Positions 3,001-64,000 of a stretch of DNA of 64,000 nucleotides are shown one piece after another; the stretch's first letter is position 1, and every line of letters starts with the position of its first letter. The notes under the pieces are model-generated. The model saw nothing but the letters and a program-made list of their open reading frames with translations. It was not told where the DNA came from and did no database searches. Made by a program: the position numbers and the translations under genes. This DNA is from Styela clava (lineage: Eukaryota; Chordata; Ascidiacea; Stolidobranchia; Styelidae). The stretch covers positions 21,443,395 through 21,507,394 of the forward strand of contig NC_135250.1 of the NCBI RefSeq assembly GCF_964204865.1. The letters are read 5' to 3'.

Positions 3001-3654
3001 ATTTGCTCAAATTTTTCAACAGTGCTCGCTTTTACCTTTTGAGGGTCTTTATAAGCGAAGTCCCTCTCTGATTCCAGGAACAATGCTTAGGACTGTCAAG
3101 TCGCCAACAAAACCAATAAATTCATATTGAATCAGTTTTTTTATCTGTGAAATCTGACTTGAATTGAATATTACTTTTTTCGGTTGATGTTTATTTTCAG
3201 ACAGTCAGACAAGGTCGCAGGGCATTGTTTTACGTAGAAAATAGTATGAGTCAGTGTGATCTCAAGAACACATAAAACAAAACAAGTCTTGTCAGTGTAT
3301 TTAACGAAGTATTTGAATTTAGATTGAATATATTATGACAACAGCTAAGGGATAATATTAGTAGAAAAAACGTGGAGCTAGGAAAAGCCAAATCAGAATC
3401 ACATATTGGGGAATATTGATTGATTAAAATCAGTGCATTTTCTGATAATCACTCAAGAAATATATGAACGTTTCTAGAATGACATTTTTGGTTGAAATTG
3501 ACGTATAGGGCAAGCATTTAATTGGTCAATTTTAGTTGAAAAATATTTTTTTATTGTTGACGTTTTTTAGCATTCTCGACTTCTTTTAAAAACTAGTACA
3601 TTAATGAATATATTCGAGCGGAATAATGATTGCAAGATCTCCAAATGAAACAAC
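1..3654. other. intergenic region upstream of the FGF gene
   Basis: No coding exon that I recognise. It is AT-rich, with a comparatively GC-rich island at about 1920-2110 that has short overlapping minus-strand frames but no family motif. The FGF promoter should lie in the right-hand end, but no clear TATA or initiator stands out. Confidence 0.5.
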
Positions 3655-6646
3655 ATGCTCCTGCCATTTTCTGTATATTGTCGAAGAATAAAAGCAACAA
3701 CGTCGTCAACAATATCAGTGTGTTTTAAAACGCCAAATCGACCTCAAATCATCTTCAATTTTCTACTTCATTTACTTATTTTAATCAACAACAGTGTTAT
3801 CAACTTCAAACGTGCAAACATTTTTCTTCTTTTCGTTGCCTTGAACTTGTTATTTGTACCAATCATGGGGTCGCCGTTGATCGTCAACCCCGAGGATAAA
3901 TCGGGCCTGGCCAATAAAGAAAATCCGAGTATAACACACAATCAAGTATCAACAAATGATAACTTCAACCTTTATGAAAGCACCACCAAAAAACGTGATT
4001 TCGAAAGACAGACTCCTTTAGATTTTCTTCAAAAGGAGAAAAATACAAACTGTTTATTCTGTAAAATATTTTCTTATCATCGGAAGGATTCACCCAATAA
4101 AGTAACGCATACAGGTTCATCAAATTCATTACAGCAAAAGACTGCTTTTTCATCAGAAAGTACAACAACAGGTCACCTACCAACGATTCAAACTAATACA
4201 GCCAAATCAGAAACTACTTCTAGCGGAAAATTGCGTCTAATGGGTGCAATTTCGCACACCGCCATGGACTCGTTTCCGTTTAATAAGCCCAGGACGCGAA
4301 GAAGATGGCGTCGAAATGTCGGCGATCGACGATTGAAAAGACTTTATTGTAGAACTGGATATATTTTACAAATTCGTTCAAATGGACGTGTAGATGGGAC
4401 ATACGACCATCGAAGCAAACTCGGTTAGTATTAGCTTGGAATTCTTAGTTGAAATCATTTACATTCTCACTTATTATTATCACACATGGTCACAGGGTAG
4501 ATGCATTAGAATAATCTGATTCACGCAGTCGATATTAAATATGAACCCAGTGCACCGTCCTGTAGAATCAGATTCGTTTACTATTTTAAATTCATAAATA
4601 TGTAGTGCGTGTTATTATTATCACATTTAGTGTGTTGAGGCCCTTCAATCAAGGCGAAATTTTATTTTAAATATGTATATATTTCCCATATTACATTGTG
4701 GTTCACTATGAGATTATCACGGGAAATTATCAAAAAAAATTTTGTTACTAAGGTGTAATTTTAAGAAGAATTCGCATAACTTAATCTACATAAAGTCCCT
4801 CTACGCTCATCGTAAATGTGCTATGAATTCCAGTTGAATATATGTTTATTTTGACCTCGTGGAAAACTGTCCATTAGCGTGTCAGCAACTTGCGCGTCTC
4901 AACATAATTGTGGACGTTAGTTTGTTTTTGCGATTTAACTGGACAAATGGACAGCGATTGTTGTTTAGTTTACCATGGAGATTAGGGGACCCCCGGTGAG
5001 AAGGATTGAATTGGTGCGTGCGACGCCATTGCGGGTAAAATTATACCTATTTTGATATCAAAAGTATAAAATGAAGAAAGTGTGGTGAAGATGCTCCCAT
5101 TAAAACAGGACCAACAAAAAAATTACCGTTTGATGTTTCAAGAGAGTAAGATCCGAATACAAGTTGGAAAAAGCATTTGGGTTTACTTGCGTCAACACTG
5201 ATATTTTCACAGATCAAATATCGAGTATTGGTATTGTCTAATGTTGTGTAACTTTCGACTTAAGGTACTAAATTTATTTGCTGACGCTGCAAGCGGTCTT
5301 CTACCCCTAAAGTTCCTTTTTAGCTGCTACTGAGAATAGTAACGCTACTCGTTTTTTGAATACAGTCAACACGTTTAATCTTGTTACCGCGCTTCTAATG
5401 AAATAGTACACCAAGTAATCGAACGAAAGCGAAGCCGAAGAAGGCCGACCCTTAAGAGTTCAAATCACGACTGAATTCAAACGAAAAAGTTGTTTTTACA
5501 AAACAGAATTTACCAGATAAACCTATTTGGTTTTTGTGGATTTTTCATGGGAAACTAATAAAACTCGAATTTAATTCGATGAGAACACAGAATAAATTTG
5601 TTTAAGGGATTCATATTTATACTAATAATACAGCACCATTAATCTTATTTAAAACCAAAATGCCACCTTTTTGAATTAATTAAAAAACACACACCTAGCG
5701 AGACTTTGTAAAATAATAAAAGTAGTTTTAAGGTCACTCACCCTGCTACCAAATGCTGCATAAACTTTTCATTGTACCCACAAATCTCGCCAAAAATGTA
5801 TTTTCGCAAGACCCAAACCTTCTAATTTTAGTTAGGGTTAATTATCTTCACTTGTACGCACGGAGATTAAGTACCCATGCCCTCAAAAAACGGATAGTCT
5901 ACCAAATAAGGGTATGTACCTACCCCTGCCTGCTATTTACTTAACCGATGTACTTACTAATTTTATTACTAAGCTCGGAATTTATGTTCCTCCTCTTTAT
6001 TTTTAGGTGAAATGCTTATACAAACGGTCAGCAAAGGTTTAGTTAGAATTCAAAGTCGAGCTACTGGACTTTTTCTTGCCATGACTCGATCGGGGAAATT
6101 ATACGCCACGGTAAGGATTTTCTATAAAAGTTCTAAAGTTCAAAAAATGTAATTAAAAACATTTAATGAAAAAGTACCATTATTTTTAACAGAATTTGGT
6201 TTGAACGATTAAAATATAACAGCAAAAGCTTTTTTTGTGAAGCGACACTTTTATATCGGCCCTTGCACGCAAGGTCAACCACAAATGCCTTGAAATAGAA
6301 TCAATTTGTTTACCCATGTTAAGACTACTTTCTCGTAACGATACTAGATTTCATAAGTTGAACAAGTATTAGGACAAAGAAACATATGGGTTTTATTAGC
6401 AACTGTATTGTAACAAACATCTGATAAGATTTTATTTTACAGGAGGTGTACGACCCCAACAGAAGTAATTTTGTGGAAAAGGTGGAAGAAGGGTGGTATA
6501 ACACATATTCAAACTGGATATCGCCCAGCGACAAAAGACAACGAAAATCTTATGTCGGTATAAGCAAACACGGAAAACCCAAAAAGGGGACGAGAATTTC
6601 ATACACCAGTAAGTCGGCACATTTCCTGCCTCTGGACGTCGACTGA
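3655..6646 (+). CDS. Fgf9/16/20: fibroblast growth factor, FGF9/16/20-like, three coding exons
   Basis: Secreted receptor-tyrosine-kinase ligand. Exons: 3655-4423, 6007-6110, 6443-6646. The donors are GTTAGT and GTAAGG, both acceptors end in AG, and phases 1 then 0 keep one frame to the TGA at 6644-6646, giving about 358 residues. The beta-trefoil core starts near residue 227. LYCRTG (230-235), then GLFLAM in exon 2 and EGWYNTYSN and HFLP in exon 3, are the FGF hallmarks; LYCRTG plus the WYNTYS block is closest to FGF9/16/20, with FGF11-14 the next alternative. The two intron positions match the conserved positions of FGF cores. Residues 31-49 and 54-70 are hydrophobic and may serve as an uncleaved or internal signal. 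A basic cluster RTRRRWRR (213-220) precedes the core and could be a proprotein-convertase site. The N-terminal extension is far longer than in vertebrate FGF9. The true start is uncertain; the ATG encoding MGSPLIV (residue 71) is an alternative. Confidence 0.87.
4424..6006 (+). other. FGF intron 1
   Basis: It separates the exon ending in the KLG codons from the exon starting with GEMLIQ. I see no additional exon or recognisable repeat inside it. Confidence 0.75.
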
Positions 6647-15344: not shown

Positions 15345-15625
15345 TGACAGGGGCTCGGCGTTGTGGCGCATCCTGCTTAGCGTTAAGAATGGACCTTTCC
15401 CCGACCTTTGACCCCCAATAAATCTACCTAGGATGCGAAAAGGGAGCATTGTTACGTCACTTTTTGCATCTTGCTGATTGGCCAATGTCAAGAAGTAAAC
15501 AAGAAATTCGATGCTCGGGGAAAGATTGATAGGCTCGACACCGCACCTCTGAGTACCCTGCGTGAGTTCGAATCCAATGCTGGGATAAATACGTGCAAGA
15601 AGATTGCTGGACTCCTCGTCGCCGC
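15345..15625 (+). repeat. tRNA-derived SINE, interrupted by a MITE
   Basis: The left part carries a box-A-like TGGCGCATCCTGCTTAGCG (about 15364-15382). The right part, after the inserted element at 15389-15530, carries a box-B match AGTTCGAATCC (about 15567). The two halves together look like one tRNA-related head of the usual spacing. The inserted element explains the abnormal distance between the boxes. Low-level degeneration suggests it is old. Confidence 0.5.
15389..15530. mobile_element. short foldback element of the GGACCTTTCCCCG family
   Basis: The left end is ATGGACCTTTCCCCGACC and the right end CTCGGGGAAAGATTGAT is its imperfect inverse. The interior matches longer copies at 41136-41637 and 55472-55950 (for example TGCGAAAAGGGAGCATTG and GCTGATTGGCCAATGT). 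It is an internally deleted member of that family. Confidence 0.65.
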
Positions 15626-41135: not shown

Positions 41136-41637
41136 ATGGACCTTTCCCCGAGCATCGACCTCCTTGTTTACTTCGTGACATTGGCAAATCAACAAATTGC
41201 AAAAAGTGACGTAACAACGCTCCCTTTTCGCATCCGCTCAGACACTTTTCTCACTCAGACAGATTTTCAAGCGTGGTCGTAAACATTACCTCGTTTTCGC
41301 ATTTTTGAACTCTATTCGTTAGTTTTCAGTTGTGTTTTGGAAACTTAAATGTAAATCAGATAATTCAATGGTCACCCTGTCTTCCTAGGAATTTTAATTT
41401 AATTGCAGTAATAAAAATTAATGTAGAAATAGCTGTGATAGACTAAGCTAAAATTCTTTAACGGTACATTTAGAAAACAGATTGTTGTATGCGATGAATC
41501 ATAATGATGGTTTGAAACACATACCCCATTTCACAGGCGCCAACACGCAAAAGCACTCTTAAAATAGCCCCGAAATTTTTGCAAGGATAAAGTATAGGAA
41601 TAATATTTCGGGGGTCAAAGGTCGGGGAAAGGTCCAT
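41136..41637. mobile_element. full-length foldback element of the GGACCTTTCCCCG family
   Basis: The termini ATGGACCTTTCCCCGA and TCGGGGAAAGGTCCAT are perfect inverses. Interior segments (TTGTTTACTTCGTGACATTGG, CTCAGACAGATTTTCA) recur at 15.4, 47.6 and 55.5 kb. About 500 bp, no coding capacity. Confidence 0.82.
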
Positions 41638-42652: not shown

Positions 42653-44929
42653 TTATTCAACACATGGTATATTGAGTTCAAAATCCAGATTAATTCCAAA
42701 TTCTTTTCGTAGAATGTCATACATTTCTTCTACGGAGCATTTCTGAAATCTCTCTAATTTCAATATGTCGGGGTCAATATACTTCTTTTCGTAATACAAA
42801 TTTTTGACGAAAAACTTTCTTTTTTCTACGCTTTGAAGAACGACGATTGGCGTTGCTTTCAAAAACTCATTTTCGTCTTGAGCAAAGTCATGCCCCACTT
42901 TGCAATCTTCGAAGGTGCAAGGAACTTTTCCCACTCCGAATACAATGTTCCAGGGAATGTCTTTGTAGCCCGTTTCATCAATTTTTGCCAAATGTTCCTC
43001 GGTTTTGCTGTTAAACCTAGGTTGATCTTTTGTTTAAAGCAGAAAAGAGAAAATAATTGGTAATTTTTTATTATTAATAAAATATGGTTCGTCTTATCGG
43101 GCATTGGCAACCTAAAGAGGTAGTGAATACTATGTAATGCTTGGATGTATGAAATTGACAAAAATGATTGAAATATATAACGAAAAATTGCTATGTGTGA
43201 TACAGAAACAGGCTTTTACTTTTTTTACATTTCCGAGGGAGAGGGGTCCGGCCCCCAAAACCACCCCCTGGTTACGCATCCTGTCTAAAATGAATTTTAC
43301 TTCAAAATAGGATTTAGGAATATTTTAATGTCACATAAAGCTGTAATTTCAATTCCAGCTGACAAATTTATCGTAATTTTTATTCTGATTCAGGCTCTGT
43401 GTCAAACGCACCTTCGGTTTTCAAGTATGTTTGTTTCTTCTTCTCTACAATATACATGTCTTGATTTTCACCCAAGCGATAAATTCCATTTGGTTGAGAT
43501 TGTTCAACTCCCATTTTGAAATTAAGCGGGAGAACGAATGATGATCCACCCCACCCGACATCTGTCAAATATTTTTCTTCACTATTCCAAGACACCTAAA
43601 TATATTGTAGCAAGTACATAAGGATAGTTACTGTGTATTTTAATATTTTCACCACTTATTGTTAGTAGTGCATGTTATTTGCCTGAAACAAGGTCGTTGT
43701 CCCAATTCATTTCCTTTATGATATATTTCTCTCACTCAGTGTAGCTTGTCTTTGCCGTTCTTTGTTAGTTAGAAATTTGGTTTCATCACATATACTTGCT
43801 TTAAGGTTTCAAGTGTAATTCGTTATTTGGATCAATTCGATTGTGCAACCTTACAATATAACAATTGGCATTCAATACATTGTGTGCTTTTCGACCTCTG
43901 AAGGAGTCAAGATCGGAGTTACACTCTGTTAACGTGTGTTCAATAACACGGGAGTGTGGACACGCAGATAGGGTCGAATCTTTGTTGCCCTATAATATAG
44001 TCTTATAATCTAAAGTCAAACGGATATGGAGAGCTAATCCAGTCTATGACTCTATGTAACAATACTCGAACGTACAGTGCACAAAAAAATGGTTGTTATA
44101 GCTAAGATAATAGTCACTAGTCTATCGCGTAGGTCGTAGAGTACCATGCAAAATATATCTATATCAGCCTACGATAATGGGATCGCAAAGATAAAAAGCT
44201 ATTGTTAAAGGACGGAATTAAGTGAAAAAAATATTACACCAATTGGAGAATAACAGCAGTCCAAGTTAATTGGAGCAGTTGCTATAGCAACGCCACTGAA
44301 CACCAAGAATAGATTGCCCTCAGAACAAAAGTTAAATTACATATTGTATTTGGCCTCGGGGATGTAACTTTTGAAAGATACAGTAAATGAGTCTCGTTAC
44401 TCGAAAAGAAAAATATTGACTTGCATAGGAAAGAATGATATCGCATATATGACCCCGATTATGAGTATTTCTGTTTCCGATCAGATATAATTTGCACCTA
44501 AGTAGATTACTTCACGAAGAAAACATGAAACATCCACTCATTTCCAACCAATGAAAGCAAAACGCATAACTGGATAATGAAAAAAAAACATCTTACCAGC
44601 AATACCAGGTGATCACTGATGGATTGAAACTGATTGTCTTTTGAAATGTATGTATATCCCTTAAGCAATTCAACTTTATATCCAAGTAATTTCAGAGCCC
44701 ACTGCAGAAGCCCATTCAATTCATAACAAAATCCTCCTCTTTTCTTCTCTACAATATTTTGATATATTGTTGGCAAATCCCAGATCTTCCGTTTACCTCC
44801 AAACATGTCCAAAGTTTCAAACGGGATATTTGATACAGAGCCCATGCAGATGTCTTTTAACAGCTCTAGCGAAGGTTGACGACTTGAGTTTTTCAAATTT
44901 ATTCTTCCGAAATACCTTTCTAAATCCAT
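42653..44929 (-). CDS. NAT: arylamine N-acetyltransferase (NAT-A), three exons, intact
   Basis: Cytosolic enzyme that moves acetyl from acetyl-CoA to arylamines or related acceptors. Exons on the minus strand: 44929-44597, 43595-43412, 43026-42653. The donors are GTAAGA and GTGCGT and the acceptors TTTAG and AAAAG; phases 0 and 1 agree, giving 296 residues, a normal NAT length. The catalytic triad is complete: Cys68 in RGGFCYELN, His107 in SDHLVLL and Asp123 in TDVGWGG. The C-terminal exon has the family's FxxxNxYYEKKY-like block (KFFVKNLYYEKKY). I chose the start MDLERYF because NATs start there; an upstream in-frame ATG at 44947 would add six residues. Four related NAT-derived pieces lie on the opposite strand between 53 and 62 kb; of these loci this is the only one with an intact active site. 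The physiological substrate cannot be told. Confidence 0.93.
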
Positions 44930-44947
44930 GATTGTGAAGTCTACCAT

Positions 44948-46226
44948 TGTAGGCTACTATGTAGGTTTTTCTATGTCGTCACCGCATGCTAACACCGCTA
45001 CCAACAATCATCGCGCTTCCTGGCCTTCTGATCGATCGCGTTTTGTTTACTGAATAAATGTTTACTTAGTGGAAAGGCATTACTGTTACAAGAGAGTGAT
45101 CTCGTACTATACCCTGATCCACTATTAAAGTCTTATTGGACACGTTTAGTGGCCATAACGATCGTTTCAAGATTTTGTTGTTATTGTTATTTTCTTTCGT
45201 CATTATCATTAAAAAATCGCTTTTCTCTTCGAATACTGGACCAATTGCTTTGGAATTTCCAGTGGTTCAAGATTGATTTTTTTGCCAGAAGGCTATTACT
45301 TTCATTTATTCCTGAATTTTCTATGAATCTTATGAGATCTAATATTTCATTCAAAATTGCGCTGTATTAATTTTTAATTATGGGAACACGGTTTTTAATC
45401 CGCCAATCGTGACGGCTGACTTTGAATATTCTTGCGACTGAAAACCCGGAACTTTTTGAGTGTACGGTACCGGTAACGTCGAAGGTAAACCCTGCTTCGC
45501 TCTAGTCCACGTGTCCATGTATTTGAGCGTTGCTCTCTTGTTTTTACAAACCAATGAAAATTGCAGATGTATGCGATATTGGATTGGTAATGACGAATGC
45601 TTAGAACATTAAACGCCCTCGACAGGATACACACCGCTAGATCGTATCTCGTGATTAATCTTTAAGCATTGTCCATATCTCTCTTGTAACTTTGACGTCG
45701 TCGTGATGCGCAAGTTTCCTTCGAGAAATTTTCCACGCTATTGAGTCAGAGCGAAAGATACACGCCGCGAGATCTTATCTCGTTACTTATAATTACTCCT
45801 TAAAGTTTAAGCAATGTCCATATTCCTCAATCAGGTTCGGGGTTGCAGAATTCCTCACCAAAATATCGCTAGGCTGTGTTTGAATAGCCGTCGCAACCTG
45901 GGTTAGCGCCGTTGTATTTGACACAAACTATAGGATTGGTAAATAGGCTATTGGCTGGAAACTAATCGAAACAATCCAGTTCAGATTTGCAGAATTCTTC
46001 ATAAAAGTATTTCCTCGAGCAGTATTTCGACGACGACATGGGGAGTTGGCTATTGTTTCCTACATTTTTGATATTGGCTGAAAACTAATCAAAACAATCC
46101 AGTTCGGGTTTGCAGAATTTTTCGAATCGAAAACGCAGTTTCTGTTTTGGGGGATCCCCTAACTTTCGATCGATAAGTCTTCGGTCTCTTACTGATATTC
46201 TCGTTTGTCATTTATCGAGCGAAAAC
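44948..46226. other. NAT-A upstream region with local direct repeats
   Basis: It contains the NAT-A promoter, without a recognisable TATA box. At 45630-46130 several phrases recur as diverged direct repeats: GATACAC-CCGC-AGATC, TTTAAGCA-TGTCCATAT, and AACAATCCAGTTC followed by TTTGCAGAATT. Confidence 0.45.
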
Positions 46227-49005: not shown

Positions 49006-51560
<2,555 letters not shown>

Positions 51561-52783: not shown

Positions 52784-53442
52784 AATGCTCAAATACGAGC
52801 ACATGGAAACGAAGACCAAAATGAATATAGCTTCGTTACACTTGATGATATTAGTTGCTTATAGATGGTTATAGGATTGTTGCTAGGGGACTACAGGTTA
52901 GTTAGTGTATTGATATATATTAAATGAGGATATATGCTGATGATTAATTTTTGATGACGTCATCACGCACACAAAAAAACGAATCCATTTAAGCACACAG
53001 AAATTTATTAAAGTAAGGAAACAAATGTGAAACAAATACAATCTCTAACCAATGACAATTTCAGAGAAATTGTTCTGATTTTCTTCACAACATGAAGGAA
53101 AAGAATAAAATAAATACAAAATACTCTACAAGAATCCCATGAATAGATGGATGGATTAACGCTTCATAGTAGCAATACACAGTTCGTGACAGGTTAATTT
53201 CTTTTTCTTCAACGGACCAGAAAAACGCCAGCAAAACTGAAAGTAGTCAGCTAGTTAGTCCATCCTATGCAATCGGCTCGGATATCAAGATGAAAACACA
53301 TTAATTAAGTAATCAATAAAACTCAATCACAATATTTTTTGGCATATTTATATGCGTCACTGACGTTAAACATGCGTATGTGTGGCTATTATTTCAGTAA
53401 ACAATAAGCCCATAGCAGCGAAGAGATTTGTTGTTCACAAGT
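52784..53442. other. NAT-B upstream region
   Basis: It probably contains the NAT-B promoter. CTATTATTTCAG (about 53387-53398) looks like a 3' splice site for a 5' untranslated intron, and the same feature appears before the chimera at 61.68 kb. Confidence 0.4.
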
Positions 53443-55181
53443 ATGGATGTGGAAAAGTATTTCGGAAGGCTAAATTTGAGAAACCGAGCACGTCAACCTT
53501 CACTAGAGCTATTGAAAGATATATGCATGGATTCTGTGTCAAACATTCCGTATGAAAACTTGGATATGTTCGGAGGTGAACGAAAAATCTGGGATTTGCC
53601 AACAATATATCAAAATATTGTAGAGAAGAGACGAGGAGGATTTTGGTTTGAATTGAATGGGCTTTTGCAGTGGGCTTTGAAATTTCTTGGATATAAAGTC
53701 GAATTGCTTATGGGATATATGTACGATTCAAAAAATAATCTATTACAAACTGTCAGTGATCGTCTGGTATTAATGGTAAGAACGAGAAACAATACGTTCT
53801 GTTTATTTGTAAAACCTCACATTACGTTCATCTTGTGAAGAACGAAAATCTAAATTTTATTATACTGGCTCAGCAATAAACTGTCGTTTATGTTCTTCCT
53901 CGCAAAATATCTATGATATTTCAATACGACTATACTTGATACTAGTAGTTGGCGATTTCATCTTTTAAACCTACGCGCGATAATTTAATTACATCTGTTT
54001 TTAATTCCCACAATAGTTTATGTAGCTTGCTTAATCAGTTAATCTATCGTAAATTGGACGTTAGCCAAACACAAATTTCCTACTTTGGGGAGTTGTTCTG
54101 TGGCCGCTCAATAGTCACCTCATATACTCTATTTTTGGACACGAAATGTACATATGAATCGTTTTGTTATTATGTTGGGGTTCTTCGTAATCATTCTTTT
54201 TTCTTGTTCTTGGAAAAAAAACGATTTCTACCAGACCAATTTGGAATTTTTAGTTAAAGATTGTATTCTTCGCTAGAGGGGCATTGCTTTTATGTATTTC
54301 AAAATTTCTGTGGGCTCTTTCTTTATTTTTGCGTGCGGTGACGTGAGCAAAATTACGCATCTTGTTCCGGTCCCTTGCTCGCAGTCAGACAAGGTCGTGA
54401 AGTCTACTTTGTTAGATTGCATACCCGGGCTTTTTGGTTTTCGTGTCCATATATTTGAGCATCGCTGTCTTTTTTTTCATTACAAGTGACCAACATAACG
54501 TTTTCTAGAAATCTGATTATTGTTGGTAATTTTTGAAAGATTTTTTTAAATCCTATATTTTTTAAATGCTTTCCTTTTACCCTGTATATACTTTAAAGAT
54601 AAGTGGGTGGTAAATTAGCGCCCCAGTGACCTGACATGCATCTACCCGTTCTGAGCCGAATGCCAGGGCTCCGATCAAATCAGGCATCGGGCCCTGGATA
54701 TGCTCTCACAGACGTGGTTCCACCGCAAATTGTATTAATATTGTATTTTAGGTTTCTTGGGACACTGAAGAACAATATCTGACAGATGTTGGGTGGGGTG
54801 GAAAATCATTTGTTCTCCCGTTGAATTTAAAAGTGGGAATTGAACAATCTCAACCGAACGGAATTTATCGCCTGAGTGAGAATCAAGATATGTATATTGT
54901 GGAAAAGAAGAAACAAACATGTTTGGAAAGTGAAGGTGAGTTCAGTTCACAGTCTAAATCGAATTCCGGATTATTGCGAGAGATCATTGGAAAATTTTGT
55001 TCGTAAAATGAAACTCTACATTTGAAAGTATCACGATGTTAGCATTCGTATATATCATTTTTAATCGTGAGTTTTTCATGTTGGCGTATCATTTTTAAAA
55101 TGGTCGTGAATATGTAGCAGTTTACGGATATCTTACAACTGATAAACAATGTATAGCTGGACTTTTTTCTGTTGTGTAGAT

Positions 55182-56580
55182 CAGTGATTCCCAAAGTGGG
55201 CGATATCGCCCCCCAGTGGGCGAAAACGATACAGAAGGGGGCGAAAAAGTTGAAGGGGGCGATAGGGGGGCGATTTCGCGAAACCTGTTTTATGTTCGGC
55301 GCACCTAATTCTGTAATCTGTGTGCATTCGCAGACTTGAATCACGTGGGCGATTATCACACGCGAAAGGATTTCTGGACTCGTCTTCGCTGTAAGGTACG
55401 GTAGTTGCGTATCCCAGTGGTCGGCAAAATACGGCCGGAGTAAAATAATCTGGCCCGGGACGATTCACTGAATGGACCTTCCCCGACCTTTGATCGCGGA
55501 AAATTCTTCCCATACTTTACCATTTTAAAATTTTCGGTGTTTATTTTAAGTGTGGTTTCGCGAGTTGTTGCCTGTAAAATGGGGTATTTGTTTCAAACTG
55601 TCATTCTAATACACACCATTCAACAATCTGTTTTTTAAAAGTACCGATAAAGAATTTCACAGCTATTTCTACACTAATTTTTGATTCTTGTAATTTAACT
55701 GAAACTCATAAGAAGACAAAGTAATCATTGATTTATTTGATTTATATTTAAATTTCCGAAAAACAACTAAAAACTAACGGACATAATTCAAAATCGCGAA
55801 ACTGAGGTAATGTTCACGACCACGCCTGAGAATCTGTCTGAGTGAGCGTGTCTGAGCGGATGCGAAAGGGGGCATTGTCACGTTTTTTGCATCTTGCTGA
55901 TTGGCCAATGTTACGAAGTAAACAAGGAAGTCTATGTCCGGGTAAACATTCAAATGGCGGTTTTGACGATGAAATTTTTTTATTTATAATCTACGCTCGA
56001 GGAGTAAATTACATTTTTTTACGTAACAGAATTTATCGTGAGACACGTTCGGACTAAATTTTATTATATCCTAAAGCAAACTAGGATTAGTGATTCCCAT
56101 TTAGAAAATATTCCAATCTTGGCGTCGTAAAGCTATCTAGCGTGATGCAGCAACAAGACAGTGCCACATTAAATGTCATTGTAATATTTTTTTAATAAGA
56201 CGACTGAGTTGAGTTCACGAATTGTCGCAGTTTTCGCGCACTGTTCCGTTTTTAATTTCAAAAAATTTATGCGACCCGCAAAAAAATGGCAACCCTGAAT
56301 TTTGTCCCGCGAGCGACATAAAATTTGCCGTCCCCTGGGCCGTAGCCGATAGTCGATCACGGCTTCTTTCACATCCGAGTCCATGAATCCAAAAACAAAT
56401 GGCTGATTAATTATGGACTGGTGATCGGACTGGAGGCCGTGGTAGGATGAGGAATCGGGGATGAATTTTACCAAAGTATTTTGGTGCATGTCATCATGCT
56501 GTACGAATAAATGAGATGTACGATGAAGTTGTATAAACTACTATAGGGGGGCGATTGTCAAAAAAGTTTGGGAACCACTG
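55182..56580. mobile_element. hAT element inserted at the NAT-B exon 3 splice acceptor
   Basis: The ends CAGTGATTCCCAAAGTGGGC and, inverted at right, CAGTGGTTCCCAAACTTTTT pair. The flanking octamers are identical, GTGTAGAT (55174-55181 and 56581-56588). Subterminal GCGATATCGCCCC and GGGGCGAT tracts are typical. A member of the GGACCTTTCCCCG foldback family (55472-55950) is nested within it. No transposase frame. Confidence 0.92.
55472..55950. mobile_element. GGACCTTTCCCCG-family element nested in the hAT
   Basis: It begins ATGGACCTTCCCCGACCTTT, contains GAGAATCTGTCTGAGTGAGC and TTGCTGATTGGCCAATGTTA, and ends near GTCCGGGTAAACATT. It lies in the opposite orientation to the copy at 41136-41637. 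Confidence 0.72.
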
Positions 56581-57349
56581 GTGTAGATGATCAACTTTGC
56601 GTCAACAGCAAAGCCAAAAAAGATTGCGTAAACCTTGATGAAATTTGCCTCAAAAATATTCCGTGGAACATCCAATTGGGTGTGGGAAAAGCTCCGTGTA
56701 CCTTTGAAGACTGTAAAGTTGGGCACGACTATGCTCAAGATGAAGATGAATTCTTGATATCAAATCCAATCGTGAGCTGTCAAAACGTGGAGAGAAGAAA
56801 GTTTTTCGTGAAAAATTTATATTACGAAAAGAAATATATCGACCCCGTAACACTGAAATTGGAGAGATTTCAGAAGTATTCCGTGGAAGACATGTACGAT
56901 ATATATTCTAAAAAAAGAATTTGGAATTATTTTGAATTTTAAACTCAGTATACCATTTATTGAATAAGTTGTACTTTGGGAAGTACTTTGTGTTACTGAT
57001 TTATTTTAAATATTAAATTACATTTACATAACAATTTTTTGCAGTTCATTATTATTTGAATTCAAACAAAAATATTTAAGACTGAAACTCAAAGACTTAC
57101 TGAGCCTTGGCCAAAAAGCTGTTTGATGCAATAATAGCTACCATGATCAAACATGCCATGAACCACCACGCAGTTAATTTTTTGTAGATAAAACCAGCAC
57201 ATCATCCAGGTTGACAAATATATAACATTTTAACATGAATCAAGTTGTTTAAAAAAATATATTTTTGTGCTGTTGTGCAACAACTCGCTCCTGTAACATT
57301 CCACCACGTTCTCCCATAAATATATAACGTCTAAATAAGACGGTGTTTT

Positions 57350-57550
57350 TACTGAAAAATAAAAAAAATAATGCAATATTTAATGTAATTCAATTATAAG
57401 TAACTTTTTAACTGGCTTATACCAATTACTGATGGATGTTCAAAGGTCGCATTGGAGCTCTTCAAGTGTCGCAAGTTGTTTCTCATTTGTGGGCTAATTG
57501 CATATCATTAGAAGTATCACAGCGTAAAATTTGGCAGCATCTATTTTGCT
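57350..57550 (+). repeat. NAT 3'-flank repeat, copy 1
   Basis: AATGCAATATTTAATGTAATTC and AAGGTCGCATTGGAGC recur at about 58862-58980, and CGTAAAATTTGGCAGCATCT recurs at about 61546. These mark the edges of tandemly duplicated NAT units. Confidence 0.7.
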
Positions 57551-57639: not shown

Positions 57640-58850
57640 CTATTTAAAAATGTATATTTTCATCTTGTGAAGAAGAAAAATTCTAAATTTTGTGATACTG
57701 GCTCAGCAATAAACTTTGGCGTTTATGTTCTTCTTCATAAAATATCTATGACATTCCAATACGACTACACTTGATATATACTACTAGTAGTTAGCAATTT
57801 CTTTTTTTTAACAGACACGTAATAATTTATTTACATCTGTTTTAATTCCCACAATAGTTTTTGTAGCTTGCTCAATCGGTTAATCTATCGTAAATTGGAC
57901 GTTAGCCCAAAACAAATTTCCTACTTTGGGGAGTTGTTCGGTGGCCGCCCAATAGTCACCTCATAATACTCTATTTTTGGACACAAAATGTACATATGGA
58001 TCGTTTTGTCATTATGTTGTTGCTCTTCTTAATCATTCATTTTTCTTCTTTTTGGAAAAAAACGATATTCACATAAACTTCCAGACCTATTGCTTTCATG
58101 TAATTTTTAGTTGAAGATTGTATTCTTCGCTAGAAGGATAATTGCTTTCATGTATTTCGAAATTTCTGTGGCCTCTTTCTACATTTTTTTTGCGTACGAT
58201 AATGTCAGCAAAATTACGAACCTTGTGGCGATTCCGCGTTCGCAGTCAGTCAAGATCGTGAATGTTAGATTGTATTTTTTAAACGCGTTCCTTTCCCCTG
58301 CATATACTTTAAAGACGAGTGGGTAAAATAGCGCCCCAGTAACCTGACAAGCATCTGCCCGTTTTTAGCCGAATGCCAGGGCTTCGATCAAATCAGGCAT
58401 CGGCTCCTGGATAAGCTCCCAAAGACGCGAGTCATATTAACACTGTAATTAAGGTTTCTTGGAACACTGAAGAAAAATATCTGACAGATGTAGGGTGGAG
58501 TGGATCATCATTTGTTCTTCCGTTAGTTTTAAAAGTAGGGATTGAACAATCTCAACCAAACGGAATTTATCGCCTGAGTGAGATGTATATTGTGGAGAAG
58601 AAGAAACAAACATGTTTGAAAAGTGAATGTTAGCTCAGTTCACAGTCTAAATCGAATTTCAGATTAGTGCGAGGGATCTTCGGACAATTTTGTTTGTGAA
58701 ATCTAACTCTACATTTAAAAGTATCACGAAGTTAACATTCGTATGAACGAATATACTCGTATATCATTTTTAATCGTGAGTTTTTAATGTTGGCGTATCA
58801 TTTAAAATGGCCGTAAATATTTAGCAGTTAGCACCGGCCGGAGAAGAGAG
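57640..58850 (+). pseudogene. NAT fragment carrying only exon 2 (NAT-C)
   Basis: Homologous to NAT-B from within intron 1 (CTGGCTCAGCAATAAACT) through exon 2 to the middle of intron 2 (ACATTTAAAAGTATCACGA). Exon 2 lies at about 58456-58630 with DVGWSGSSFVLPL. Three residues of the LSENQDMYIV block are missing (LSEMYIV), and the donor is GTTAGC instead of GTGAGT. Exons 1 and 3 are absent, so it cannot encode an enzyme. Confidence 0.82.
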
Positions 58851-59112
58851 CAATTTGAATTTCTCCTGAAAAATAACGCAATATTTGATGTAATTCAATT
58901 AATTAATCACTTTTTATCTGGTTTATAACATAACAATTACTTTTGAATGTTCGAGGGTCGCATTGGAGCCGCAAGTTTGACATTCTCATTTTGCTACCTA
59001 AATTTTTTCCTGCGTGGAATGGGTTTGAAATGATCAAATAAGAAAAATTCCCTGTAGAAGTTCCTTTTTTCATAGTAAAATTGCTATATTGCGTAGAATG
59101 CAACACTTACAA

Positions 59113-59766: not shown

Positions 59767-61629
59767 CGTGAACAAAATATTATGTTATCTAACTCATTAT
59801 TTTAACAATACAATGTACGATACATAAGCTAATACACGAATTTAATCGTACTTGAAAATAAGTTTGAAATACTATTCGACTTTTAGCATCAGCTCTTAAT
59901 TTTCCACTATGATCAGCAATATCCTTTTTACATGTATAATATTATTTGCTAGTATAAAATTGAGACTATTTTTACCAAGGTTGCATTTGTAAATGAAAAA
60001 TTTTGCACATTATAATGCCATGTTAGTCATGCATTTACGATTTCGCAAAATTGCCGTAAAGTTCACAGAAATAAAATAAATGTCTCTCCTGCCTGCTCCA
60101 GCTAAAATCATTTCTGAAAAAATCCATTTTTCATGAAAGCCGGTTTCAACAGCAATATATTTCCCCGGAATGGTCGCCAATGTAAGTAGACTAGTAAGTA
60201 AATAGGTTTATTTCGAATTCTCGTTACAACAAAACAAAGAAGCAATACACGACAAAACAAACAAATATGCGGAAAATCAGGAAAGTAAGCAAAATCTAAT
60301 AAAGATTTAAGACGTGGTGATTCACGTGCCCACTTACCCCATACAGCAAACGACACATTGAAGTAATTAAAAATATACACGGAATATAATTCGGGCGTAA
60401 ATACTTGGGTGTGGAGTTTGAACATAGGCTGCAATTTCTACCATATATATCTTATACAAGAAAAAAACGAGGGAAGTGTGCAGCACAACAAACAAACAAG
60501 CGGCGCTGTGATAATTAATGTGGTTCCGAACACACGAAACTAATAGTCGACTGGGCGATACCCAACAATAGCAGCCTAAAAGTAAACAACAACAAACGAT
60601 GTACAGTATAACAATGTATTCTATGCCCTGGCGTTCCCACTTCAGTATTAATCAGAATCCACGAGCTTTGTGAACTTGTGCTGTGCAAGCGCTCGTTTTT
60701 ATGGAATCCATTATATCCGCTACATCTGACGTTTGACTTTTCATGTTATTCTCAGCTTCAGTCAGTTTTCCACGATGAACTCCATTTGCGGTTGCACGTG
60801 TGAAAGTATGTCCCTCCGCCTCATGGAGTACTTTGACTGAATGTAAGTTTGCGATAAGGTAATTTTGTATCAAACAGCTTTCACAAGAATGGATTTGAGT
60901 AGAAAATATCCACCTTAGTCTATACACATCCTAACCTTTCAAGTTATAAATGCCTCGTATACCGGTATAAAAGTTAGCCATAATGCTCAAAATAAAATAT
61001 TACTGTAGCATACCTCACAGCCTTTTTTGCCAAATAAATTCCAATGCCAATCCAAGAGATTTTAGTGTCGAATCAGAATAAATTGCCCCAATTTTTTGAA
61101 TTATGATTTCATAGTTTTAAACACATTCCCCACGAGTGTAAATAGTAAAAATTAAAATATAAAACCATACAATTACCTGAATTTTGTTAATCCAATGTAT
61201 GTCCATAAGAAATAAGTTAATTCATTTTATCATACAGTCGTCATCCAATTCGTGCGTCCATTTTATATACATTTATCAGTAATTAATCGAACTAGTTAAT
61301 TTTTTGTATGGAAATTGGAAAAATAGAAAAATTAGACAGAGAATCAGAAAACAACTAAAGTGGGTGTTTTGTTATTTTTCTTTTCTGTATCTATGTATGA
61401 ATATTAAATCTAAATAAATTTCGACATTTAAATTCTTTCATATAATATTCAACAAATCTGGTGTTGCCTAGAAAATGTCAAATCATGATTGATCTAGGTA
61501 TGAGATAGTGCATATGTTCATACAATAATAAATCATAATCGTAATCGTAAAATTTGGCAGCATCTATTTTGCAGGCGTTGCATCAATAGGCGAACCGAAG
61601 TGTCTAAATAAACGTGAATCGGTCAAAAG
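59767..61629. other. intergenic, one weak exon candidate
   Basis: Mostly AT-rich. The only part with coding-like composition is the minus-strand segment at 60652-60852, listed separately. Confidence 0.35.
60652..60852 (-). CDS. possible unassigned exon
   Basis: On the minus strand a plausible acceptor CTTACATTCAG at about 60842 is followed by an open frame (VKVLHEAEGHTF, then KLTEAENNMKS and VADIMDSIKTS) that ends at a stop at 60652. Its amino-acid mix is balanced and helical, and it is less AT-biased than its surroundings. I do not recognise the family and see no partner exon, so this may be chance. Confidence 0.2.
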   Translation of the reverse strand, partial: ANLHSVKVLHEAEGHTFTRATANGVHRGKLTEAENNMKSQTSDVADIMDSIKTSACTAQVHKARGF

Positions 61630-63003
61630 ACGGTTATGCCACGTTGATGGCTGGCATGTATATACATTAATGACGTGTCTATTCTTTCAGTAATCAATAA
61701 GCATTATAACAGCAAAAAGTTGTTCACGTTCAAGTTCAAGTATGGATGTGGAAAAGTATTTCGAAAGGTTAAATTTGAGAATTGGATTGGTGATGGATTA
61801 TTAACAAGTTATGGCGGCAAGTGGAAACGAAATCGTCGTCTCCTTACCCCGGCATTCCATTTTGATATTTTGAAACGGTATCTTGTGTGTTTCAACGATT
61901 CTGTTGCCGAGCTTATTCAAAAATGGTCAACTTCAAGTGAAAATTGTGTGAGTGTAGAATTGTTCACCGATATCAGTGCAATGACGTTAGACAATTTGCT
62001 ACAATGTATTCTATCCAAGAAATCTGGATGTCAAAGCGGAAAAAGCATGGAATATCTTAACGCTATAAAATGCATAACAGAGGGCGTTGTTGGCCGACTT
62101 CGAAACCCATTATACCATTTCGATTTAATTTCCTACTTATCGCCAGCGGGGAAAAAGTTTAAAGAAGCTTGCAAAACTGTTCATTCTTTTTCGAGTGCTG
62201 CAATAAATGAAAGAAAATCTTCTTTGAAGCACGGGAACGAAAGAGATTCAACCGACGATACTACGAAGTTGGATTTTTTAGATATTATGCTGCTAGCAAA
62301 AGATGATAATGGAATAGGTATGTCACACCAAGAAATATGTGATGAAGTTGATACCTTCGTATTTGAAGGGCATGATACAGTGTCAAGTGGAATATGTTGG
62401 ATAATTTATAATTTGGCAACTAATCCAGAACATCAAGAAATTTGTAGGAATGAGGTATTTGAAGTACTTGGTGAACAACAAAGAGTTAATTATGAAAACT
62501 TGTTTAAATTCAAGTACCTCACGATGTGCATTAAAGAAAGCATGAGACTTCATCCACCAGTACCGTCGGTTGGTAGAAAAATGAACAAACCATTTTTCTT
62601 TTCTAATGGATTTGGACCTGACCAATACAACACGAATTCGTCTGAGAGTTCGGGACCGGAATCTTCTAAGATTATTCACACTAACACACTCATCGGGGTC
62701 TCCATTTACAGACTACATCGCAATCCTTGCATTTGGAGCAATCCAGAGGTTTTTGATCCTGAGAGATTCACTCCAGAAAATATATCTAAGCGATCTTCTC
62801 ATGCATATGTGCCGTTTTCCGCAGGATCACGAAATTGCATTAGACAAAATTTTGCAATGAATGAAATGAAAGTTACTCTTGCATTAGCACTTCAAAGATT
62901 TCGTTTCTCCCTGGATGAAACCTACCCAAAACCAGCTGTCCAGCCACAGCTTGTCTCGCGATCAACCACGGGTATCCATGTAAAGCTAGAAAAGTTGGAA
63001 TAA
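61630..63003 (+). pseudogene. CYP4: NAT 5' end fused to an anchorless CYP4 body (CYP-B chimera)
   Basis: About 61678-61781 matches the NAT-B 5' end: TTTCAGTAA-CAATAAGC, GTTGTTCAC, and the NAT start region ATGGATGTGGAAAAGTATTT. At 61782 it switches to the CYP4 body at WIGDGLL. The first 115 or so CYP residues, including the membrane anchor, are gone. The NAT ATG (61742) is out of the CYP frame and stops after 20 codons; the open CYP frame extends back only to an ATG at 61675, which would lie inside an intron if the upstream TTTCAG is used. The CYP frame is otherwise uninterrupted, lacks the one-base deletion of CYP-A, and keeps EGHDTVSSG and KESMRLHPP. The haem motif has CIR where CYP-A has CIG (codon AGA, 62842-62844), replacing the conserved glycine. 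AATAAA lies at 63226. A functional enzyme is unlikely. Confidence 0.87.
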
Positions 63004-64000
63004 TCTAGAAGCGACAAATGGACTACTTGATATAACATGGCTTAGTAAGATGATAACGATAAGATGCTTTAGGCTTATGACTAATCGCTACATCAACTCT
63101 GTACATTTCAAATCTTTCAATCGTGTAAGATGTATATTGAAGTGTATATGTATTTTGATCATACCCGTGAAAAATTACGTCATTCCAATGAAAAGATGAT
63201 AATTTTCCTGTTTATATAATTGTTGAATAAATAATTGTTTATGTACTCACAGCTGATTTTATTCGTGTTCGACAAAATAAATCAAATATGTAAGGTAGAT
63301 TTTTACAAATAATATCCAAGACTCGCCAAATATTTCACACTGAAATAACTAATTACTGAGGTAGATACTTGAGGGTTTGAATATTCAGTCTTGGGAAGAG
63401 ACAAGGCCTTCGCTTCACATACGCGAGTTATACAAATAGGAAGAAGTTTTGTAAATCATATTAGGTCACACGCACAGTAAAGAGAAGGAATAACAATTTT
63501 TCGCATTGTAATCTAAACACTGCCATCCGCCCATCTTCGAATCAAGAATATCGGCTACATCGTTCAGATTTACAGTGCTATTCCCCCATTAGTCATAATG
63601 ATATTTTAACATACTTCTTCGCACATGCAATCTAGGATAGAACATTTATCACGGGGAGATAAAAATCACTAATGTGAATTAATTATATGGCGAATCGTCA
63701 TTACTCGGTCGGCTTTCAGTCCATGTCAAGTACGGTTAACCAGTTATTATTTTCGATTGCAAAAGCTTGTTCATTTGAGCATATTATAATGACAGAATTT
63801 CAATTCATATACTACTGGTAGCTACAAGTTTTGCCAGCAAGCTATTTTTGCCATTATTTTTTGAGCAGCATTTAATGATTTATTTTAATCATGATAAAAG
63901 GGACTAGATCTTTGAAAAGAGTTAGATCTCTGATTATTGCTGATGAGATCATCATTAGGTGATGTTATTGTACTTGTGACAAATGAATATGTAAAAAAAG
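61782..64000 (+). repeat. segmental duplication, copy 2 (CYP body plus 3' flank)
   Basis: Near-identical to 49353-51560 and continuing to the window edge, so its true length is unknown. Confidence 0.93.

Follow-up and report, generated by a model that had tools for sequence, protein, structure and literature searches.

The window analysed here, a stretch of 64,000 nucleotides from the ascidian Styela clava containing no N bases, carries genes and gene fragments of two detoxification families, NAT and the P450 family CYP4. One short NAT-like fragment runs directly into the body of a CYP4 gene, and the features surrounding this joint are as follows.

42653-44929, minus strand: NAT-a, with its ATG at 44929.
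49006-50573, plus strand: CYP4 copy 1, full-length and without visible introns, with an N-terminal anchor and a one-base frameshift near 50160.
49353-51553, plus strand: first copy of the putatively duplicated segment, 96.3% identical to 61782-63999.
53443-56942, plus strand: NAT-b, three coding exons in a splice model, with PF00797 on exon 1; aligned to human NAT2.
57659-58829, plus strand: NAT-c, a pseudogene consisting of intron 1 and an exon 2 fragment only.
61675-61781, plus strand: NAT-d 5' fragment, with an acceptor-like site TTCTTTCAG, a short leader, an ATG at 61742 and 13 codons.
61781-61782, plus strand: novel joint from mid-exon NAT to mid-exon CYP4, placed by the ends of the BLAST matches and the sequence itself.
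61782-63003, plus strand: CYP4 body (copy 2) without residues 1-116, running to the stop codon, with Gly to Arg in the heme signature (codon 62842).
63004-63999, plus strand: putatively duplicated CYP4 3' flank, in which homology persists to the window edge.

Pfam matches to PF00797 were found at 53416-53835 and 44510-44953, and the presumed exon 3 of NAT-b (56547-56939), searched alone, matched no Pfam family. The frame of NAT-b is open over the three exons of the splice model. The NAT catalytic triad is given as Cys68, His107 and Asp122 in the available part of PMC3601968; in the alignment with human NAT2, NAT-b has Trp at the catalytic Cys and Arg at the catalytic His, and keeps the Asp. 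NAT-b could be either a NAT without catalytic function or a pseudogene at an early stage; NAT-a retains both the Cys and the His. NAT-c matches 53827-55122 in two pieces at 82-83% identity (self-BLAST), and tblastn detected neither exon 1 nor exon 3 beside the fragment. It is flanked on both sides by a directly repeated element of about 95 bp (57364-57458 and 58869-58969, 81% identical).

NAT-like sequence also precedes the CYP4 body, and we use NAT-d here as the name of the further NAT paralogue to which it is assigned. The fragment at 61675-61781 matches the 5' end of NAT-b at 53382-53482 with 81.7% identity over 109 columns (E 8e-21, self-BLAST). Because it is only 82% like NAT-b, NAT-d is, as judged from this alignment, a paralogue separate from NAT-b. 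The homologous stretch comprises roughly 67 bp of leader followed by 40 coding bases. In the alignment of the 5' ends, a pyrimidine-AG acceptor-like site is common to the fragment and NAT-b, and the ATG is common to the fragment, NAT-a and NAT-b, which bears out the original prediction that a NAT acceptor and start codon are included. That prediction had also placed a NAT-like front at the beginning of an interval from 61630 to 63003; about 107 bp of it (61675-61781) are indeed NAT-like, and 61630-61674 lies outside the match. Its suggestion that a NAT promoter had been captured is not sustained, as the homology consists of leader and 40 coding bases, and a BLAST comparison of the DNA upstream of 61675 with that upstream of NAT-b gave no match. 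A scan for promoters of the bacterial type returned five sites where 2.5 were expected, a result that says little about an animal-like locus and was set aside. When the NAT-a protein was used as a tblastn query, a full exon 1 was recovered in NAT-a and NAT-b only, together with 13 residues at 61742-61780; nothing of the remainder of this exon in NAT-d was detected within the window. The open reading frame that spans the fusion has no PF00797 match at E 0.01 and includes 13 NAT codons only, so that it lacks the Cys-His-Asp catalytic domain.

The change from one homology to the other is abrupt. In the self-BLAST of the window, the NAT-like match ends and the CYP4 match starts at 61781/61782, exactly where a sharp switch had been predicted. 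The NAT-like side ends in ...TTTGAGAA and the CYP4 side opens with TTGGATTGG; at the corresponding position, CC precedes in copy 1 and NAT-b continues with ACC. No microhomology is visible at the joint when NAT-b stands in for NAT-d's own continuation. BLAST between the two ends of the proposed duplication likewise gave no match, and on this ground recombination driven by homology at the joint was rejected. An exact 27-bp repeat (57523-57549 and 61546-61572; no such match in 100 shuffles) was considered as a recombination substrate and discarded, since 209 bp separate it from the joint and a search of the window allowing up to three mismatches turned up no third occurrence. One of its two copies is located upstream of NAT-c and the other upstream of the NAT-d fragment.

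Across the joint, the hybrid consists of the first 40 NAT coding letters, out of frame, followed by the back three quarters of a CYP4. The P450 frame can be read without interruption from 61648 to its stop at 63003. The reading frame 61648-63000 belongs to PF00067 (Pfam), with its best stretch beginning at profile position 73 of 462, and among solved structures its nearest relative is CYP4B1 (5t6q, E 2.8e-107), to which it aligns from query residue 43; the fusion sits in codon 45, two residues past the start of that alignment. As predicted, the body comes without its membrane anchor: the highest 19-residue hydrophobicity is 0.9 in the front of copy 2, against 3.2 at the N-terminus of copy 1. 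The NAT start codon at 61742 is out of the P450 frame and reads 20 residues before a stop, again in line with the prediction. Among the ATGs listed between 61550 and 62100, the only one in the P450 frame before 61981 lies at 61636 and stops after three residues; that at 61981 is the first to read into the body, giving 340 residues. The hybrid thus has neither the membrane anchor nor the in-frame start codon of a functional CYP4.

P450 enzymes carry the heme signature motif FxxGxRxCxG, and further motifs are ExxR and the oxygen-binding region of the I helix. The latter two are present in the hybrid frame as KESMR and FEGHDT, aligned to CYP4B1. The heme signature of copy 2 is damaged: its last Gly, at position 399 of the reading frame, is Arg, where the DNA of copy 1 and CYP4B1 both have CIG. 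An expressed and functional hybrid, in which the NAT leader would drive an anchorless P450 whose translation begins at a non-AUG codon or in an exon further upstream, draws on the open P450 frame from 61648 to 63003 and on its 134 stop-free bases upstream of the joint, a run seen in 1.5% of mononucleotide shuffles in a test that was post hoc. Such a hybrid is nevertheless highly improbable, given the want of a usable P450-frame ATG before 61981, the missing residues 1-116 and the change of the heme Gly to Arg. Equally improbable is that a NAT-side transcript yields, through the same kinds of start, a CYP4-like protein that lacks the anchor and serves some non-catalytic role, so that a phase II leader would re-express a phase I body. 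Most likely, the hybrid is a chimeric pseudogene, either silent or incapable of being translated. It had been put forward as a frozen intermediate in the making of a chimeric gene, and this appears unlikely with the frame lost, residues 1-116 missing and the heme signature damaged.

The sequence beyond the joint is not confined to a coding fragment. Positions 61782-63999 are a direct copy of 49353-51553, 96.3% identical over 2224 columns with five gap openings (self-BLAST). The repeat is at least 2.2 kb long, starts at the joint and remains homologous up to the window edge; at the joint the two copies are offset by 12,429 bp. Both CYP4 copies lie on the same strand in direct orientation, as is expected of a tandem duplication for this 3' part. 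The second copy extends past the stop codon through about 1 kb of 3' flank and shows no end at a poly(A) site, which disfavors a new processed retrocopy at the joint; the argument is weaker if all of this flank is 3' UTR.

The joint at 61781/61782 is probably the novel joint of a direct tandem duplication whose unit measures about 12.43 kb; the resulting hybrid is likely dead. This reading is favored because the 2.2 kb direct repeat (96.3%) begins at the joint and runs on to the end of the window, and it is further supported because the fragment derives from a separate NAT paralogue, as a right breakpoint in another NAT requires. A segment with its left end within the CYP4 gene (49353) and its right end within exon 1 of the NAT paralogue (61781) would have been duplicated in direct tandem, with end joining without visible homology producing the joint. 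At that point NAT-d would contribute its leader, start codon and 13 codons, placed ahead of CYP4 codons 117 to the end in another frame. The 5' end of the downstream gene would thus be placed on the 3' part of the upstream gene, while both originals would be kept and the middle joint alone would be hybrid. The second copy would extend past the window, measure about 12.4 kb overall and end near 74.2 kb in an intact NAT-d. Its right end falls beyond the window edge, and this counts against taking the tandem structure as proven. A transcript from the NAT side, if any, would give the 20-residue peptide only and leave the P450 body unread, and the hybrid would be a pseudogene under little constraint. 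What had been described as an isolated capture is more readily understood as the seam left where the copies of a direct segmental duplication meet, 61782-63999 copying 49353-51553. The same joint would result from two steps, namely a larger duplication with other ends and a subsequent deletion of the rest of NAT-d together with the second CYP4 front, and the region does hold other rearranged NAT pieces such as NAT-c. This sequence of events is distinctly unlikely, two events being invoked where one suffices and nothing in the window calling for two.

The divergence between the copies bears on the proposed duplication in several ways. The coding regions differ at 19 of 1221 positions (1.56%), with one 1-bp gap, and the 3' flanks at 35 of 974 (3.59%), with four gaps, the coding part being less diverged than the flank (Fisher p 0.003). 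By the Nei-Gojobori method there are 8 synonymous and 11 amino-acid changes, with dN/dS 0.37. Synonymous sites (8/259) are more diverged than nonsynonymous sites (11/956; p 0.04) and similar to the flank (p 0.85). A transition-weighted neutral simulation of 19 changes, however, gave 13.0 expected amino-acid changes against the 11 seen, with a probability of 0.23 for 11 or fewer and of 0.085 for 11 or fewer together with no stop codon. Constraint may thus have acted during part of the divergence of the copies, as the site comparisons suggest, though the simulation tempers this. The lower coding divergence, the dN/dS of 0.37 and the 134-base open stretch of P450 frame count against the favored reading, in which the hybrid is a pseudogene under little constraint.

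The same figures can be read in terms of the assembly. In very heterozygous animals, the range of allelic identity includes 96.3%, and the sequence from 61782 onward might be the other haplotype of that from 49353 onward, falsely duplicated and misjoined to the NAT fragment. The lower divergence of coding sequence and the dN/dS of 0.37 would suit alleles of a constrained gene. A one-base gap relative to copy 2 shifts the frame of copy 1 near 50160, and this frameshift could be a sequencing error. Such an artefact is nonetheless unlikely: unrelated sequences would have been joined in mid-exon with no shared repeat found and no N, an unusual join for an assembler, and a frameshift in one copy with a heme change in the other is unexpected for alleles of a working gene. 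False duplications are reported to be widespread in assemblies in the available part of PMC9516828. Returning to the tandem duplication, neither visible CYP4 copy is predicted to encode an intact P450, because copy 2 carries the heme Gly to Arg change and copy 1 the one-base frameshift.

The 11 amino-acid differences were polarized by eye on the CYP4B1 alignment, a single relative being a thin basis, and 6 of them could be assigned, 3 as derived in copy 1 and 3 as derived in copy 2, with 5 undecided. Those derived in copy 1 are at positions 272 and 423 of the reading frame, where CYP4B1 has the residue of copy 2, and at 229, where the agreement is of residue class only; those derived in copy 2 are at 399 and 437, where CYP4B1 has the residue of copy 1, and at 162, again by class only. 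Conserved residues thus seem, on this alignment, to have been lost in both copies. The coding region of copy 1 shows no visible introns. Vertebrate CYP4 genes, by contrast, have many exons, and copy 1 may descend from an old retrocopy.

The hybrid, so interpreted, is a fresh instance of chimeric genes made by tandem duplication, a kind already described. Tandem duplications that ignore gene boundaries are reported to join parts of genes in Drosophila yakuba in the available part of PMC5460883, where a population sample and RNA data were used, whereas the present case comes from one assembly and sequence alone, with the frame broken. CYP337B3 of Helicoverpa armigera is likewise a P450 locus made chimeric by rearrangement; according to the part of PMC6211633 available, it has two P450 parents, is thought to have arisen by unequal crossing-over and is active on fenvalerate, whereas here a NAT and a P450 are joined out of frame, and no homology is visible where they meet. 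Human NATP and the birth and death of NAT genes, as covered in the accessible portion of PMC3601968, similarly involve small clusters with duplicated and broken copies; the coding regions of human NAT1 and NAT2 are described there as intronless, in contrast to the three coding exons and the broken copy fused to another gene at this locus. A narrow literature search found no paper on a NAT-CYP4 fusion, and among the matches listed for chimeric P450s, chimeras from tandem duplication and intronless or ascidian CYP4 there was no title of this kind. The available part of PMC8537429 does not mention exon, intron, CYP4F or CYP4B, and none of its five uses of the word genomic concerns gene structure. 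A genuine duplication here would clearly illustrate how one step can put the leader of one detoxification gene on the body of another, and would show why such hybrids can be dead at birth, with both frame and N-terminus lost. Counts of CYP and NAT genes taken from the locus would include broken copies.

Two further features of the window were observed. A dispersed repeat occurs at 41143-41637 and 55472-55946 in opposite orientations (79% identical), one site lying in intron 2 of NAT-b and the other beyond the 3' end of NAT-a, and a shorter related piece is found at 15431-15527. An open reading frame at 3649-4425 has a weak FGF match at its end (4330-4419; 23 bits, against a Pfam cut-off of 24), and this FGF-like frame is perhaps a first coding exon.
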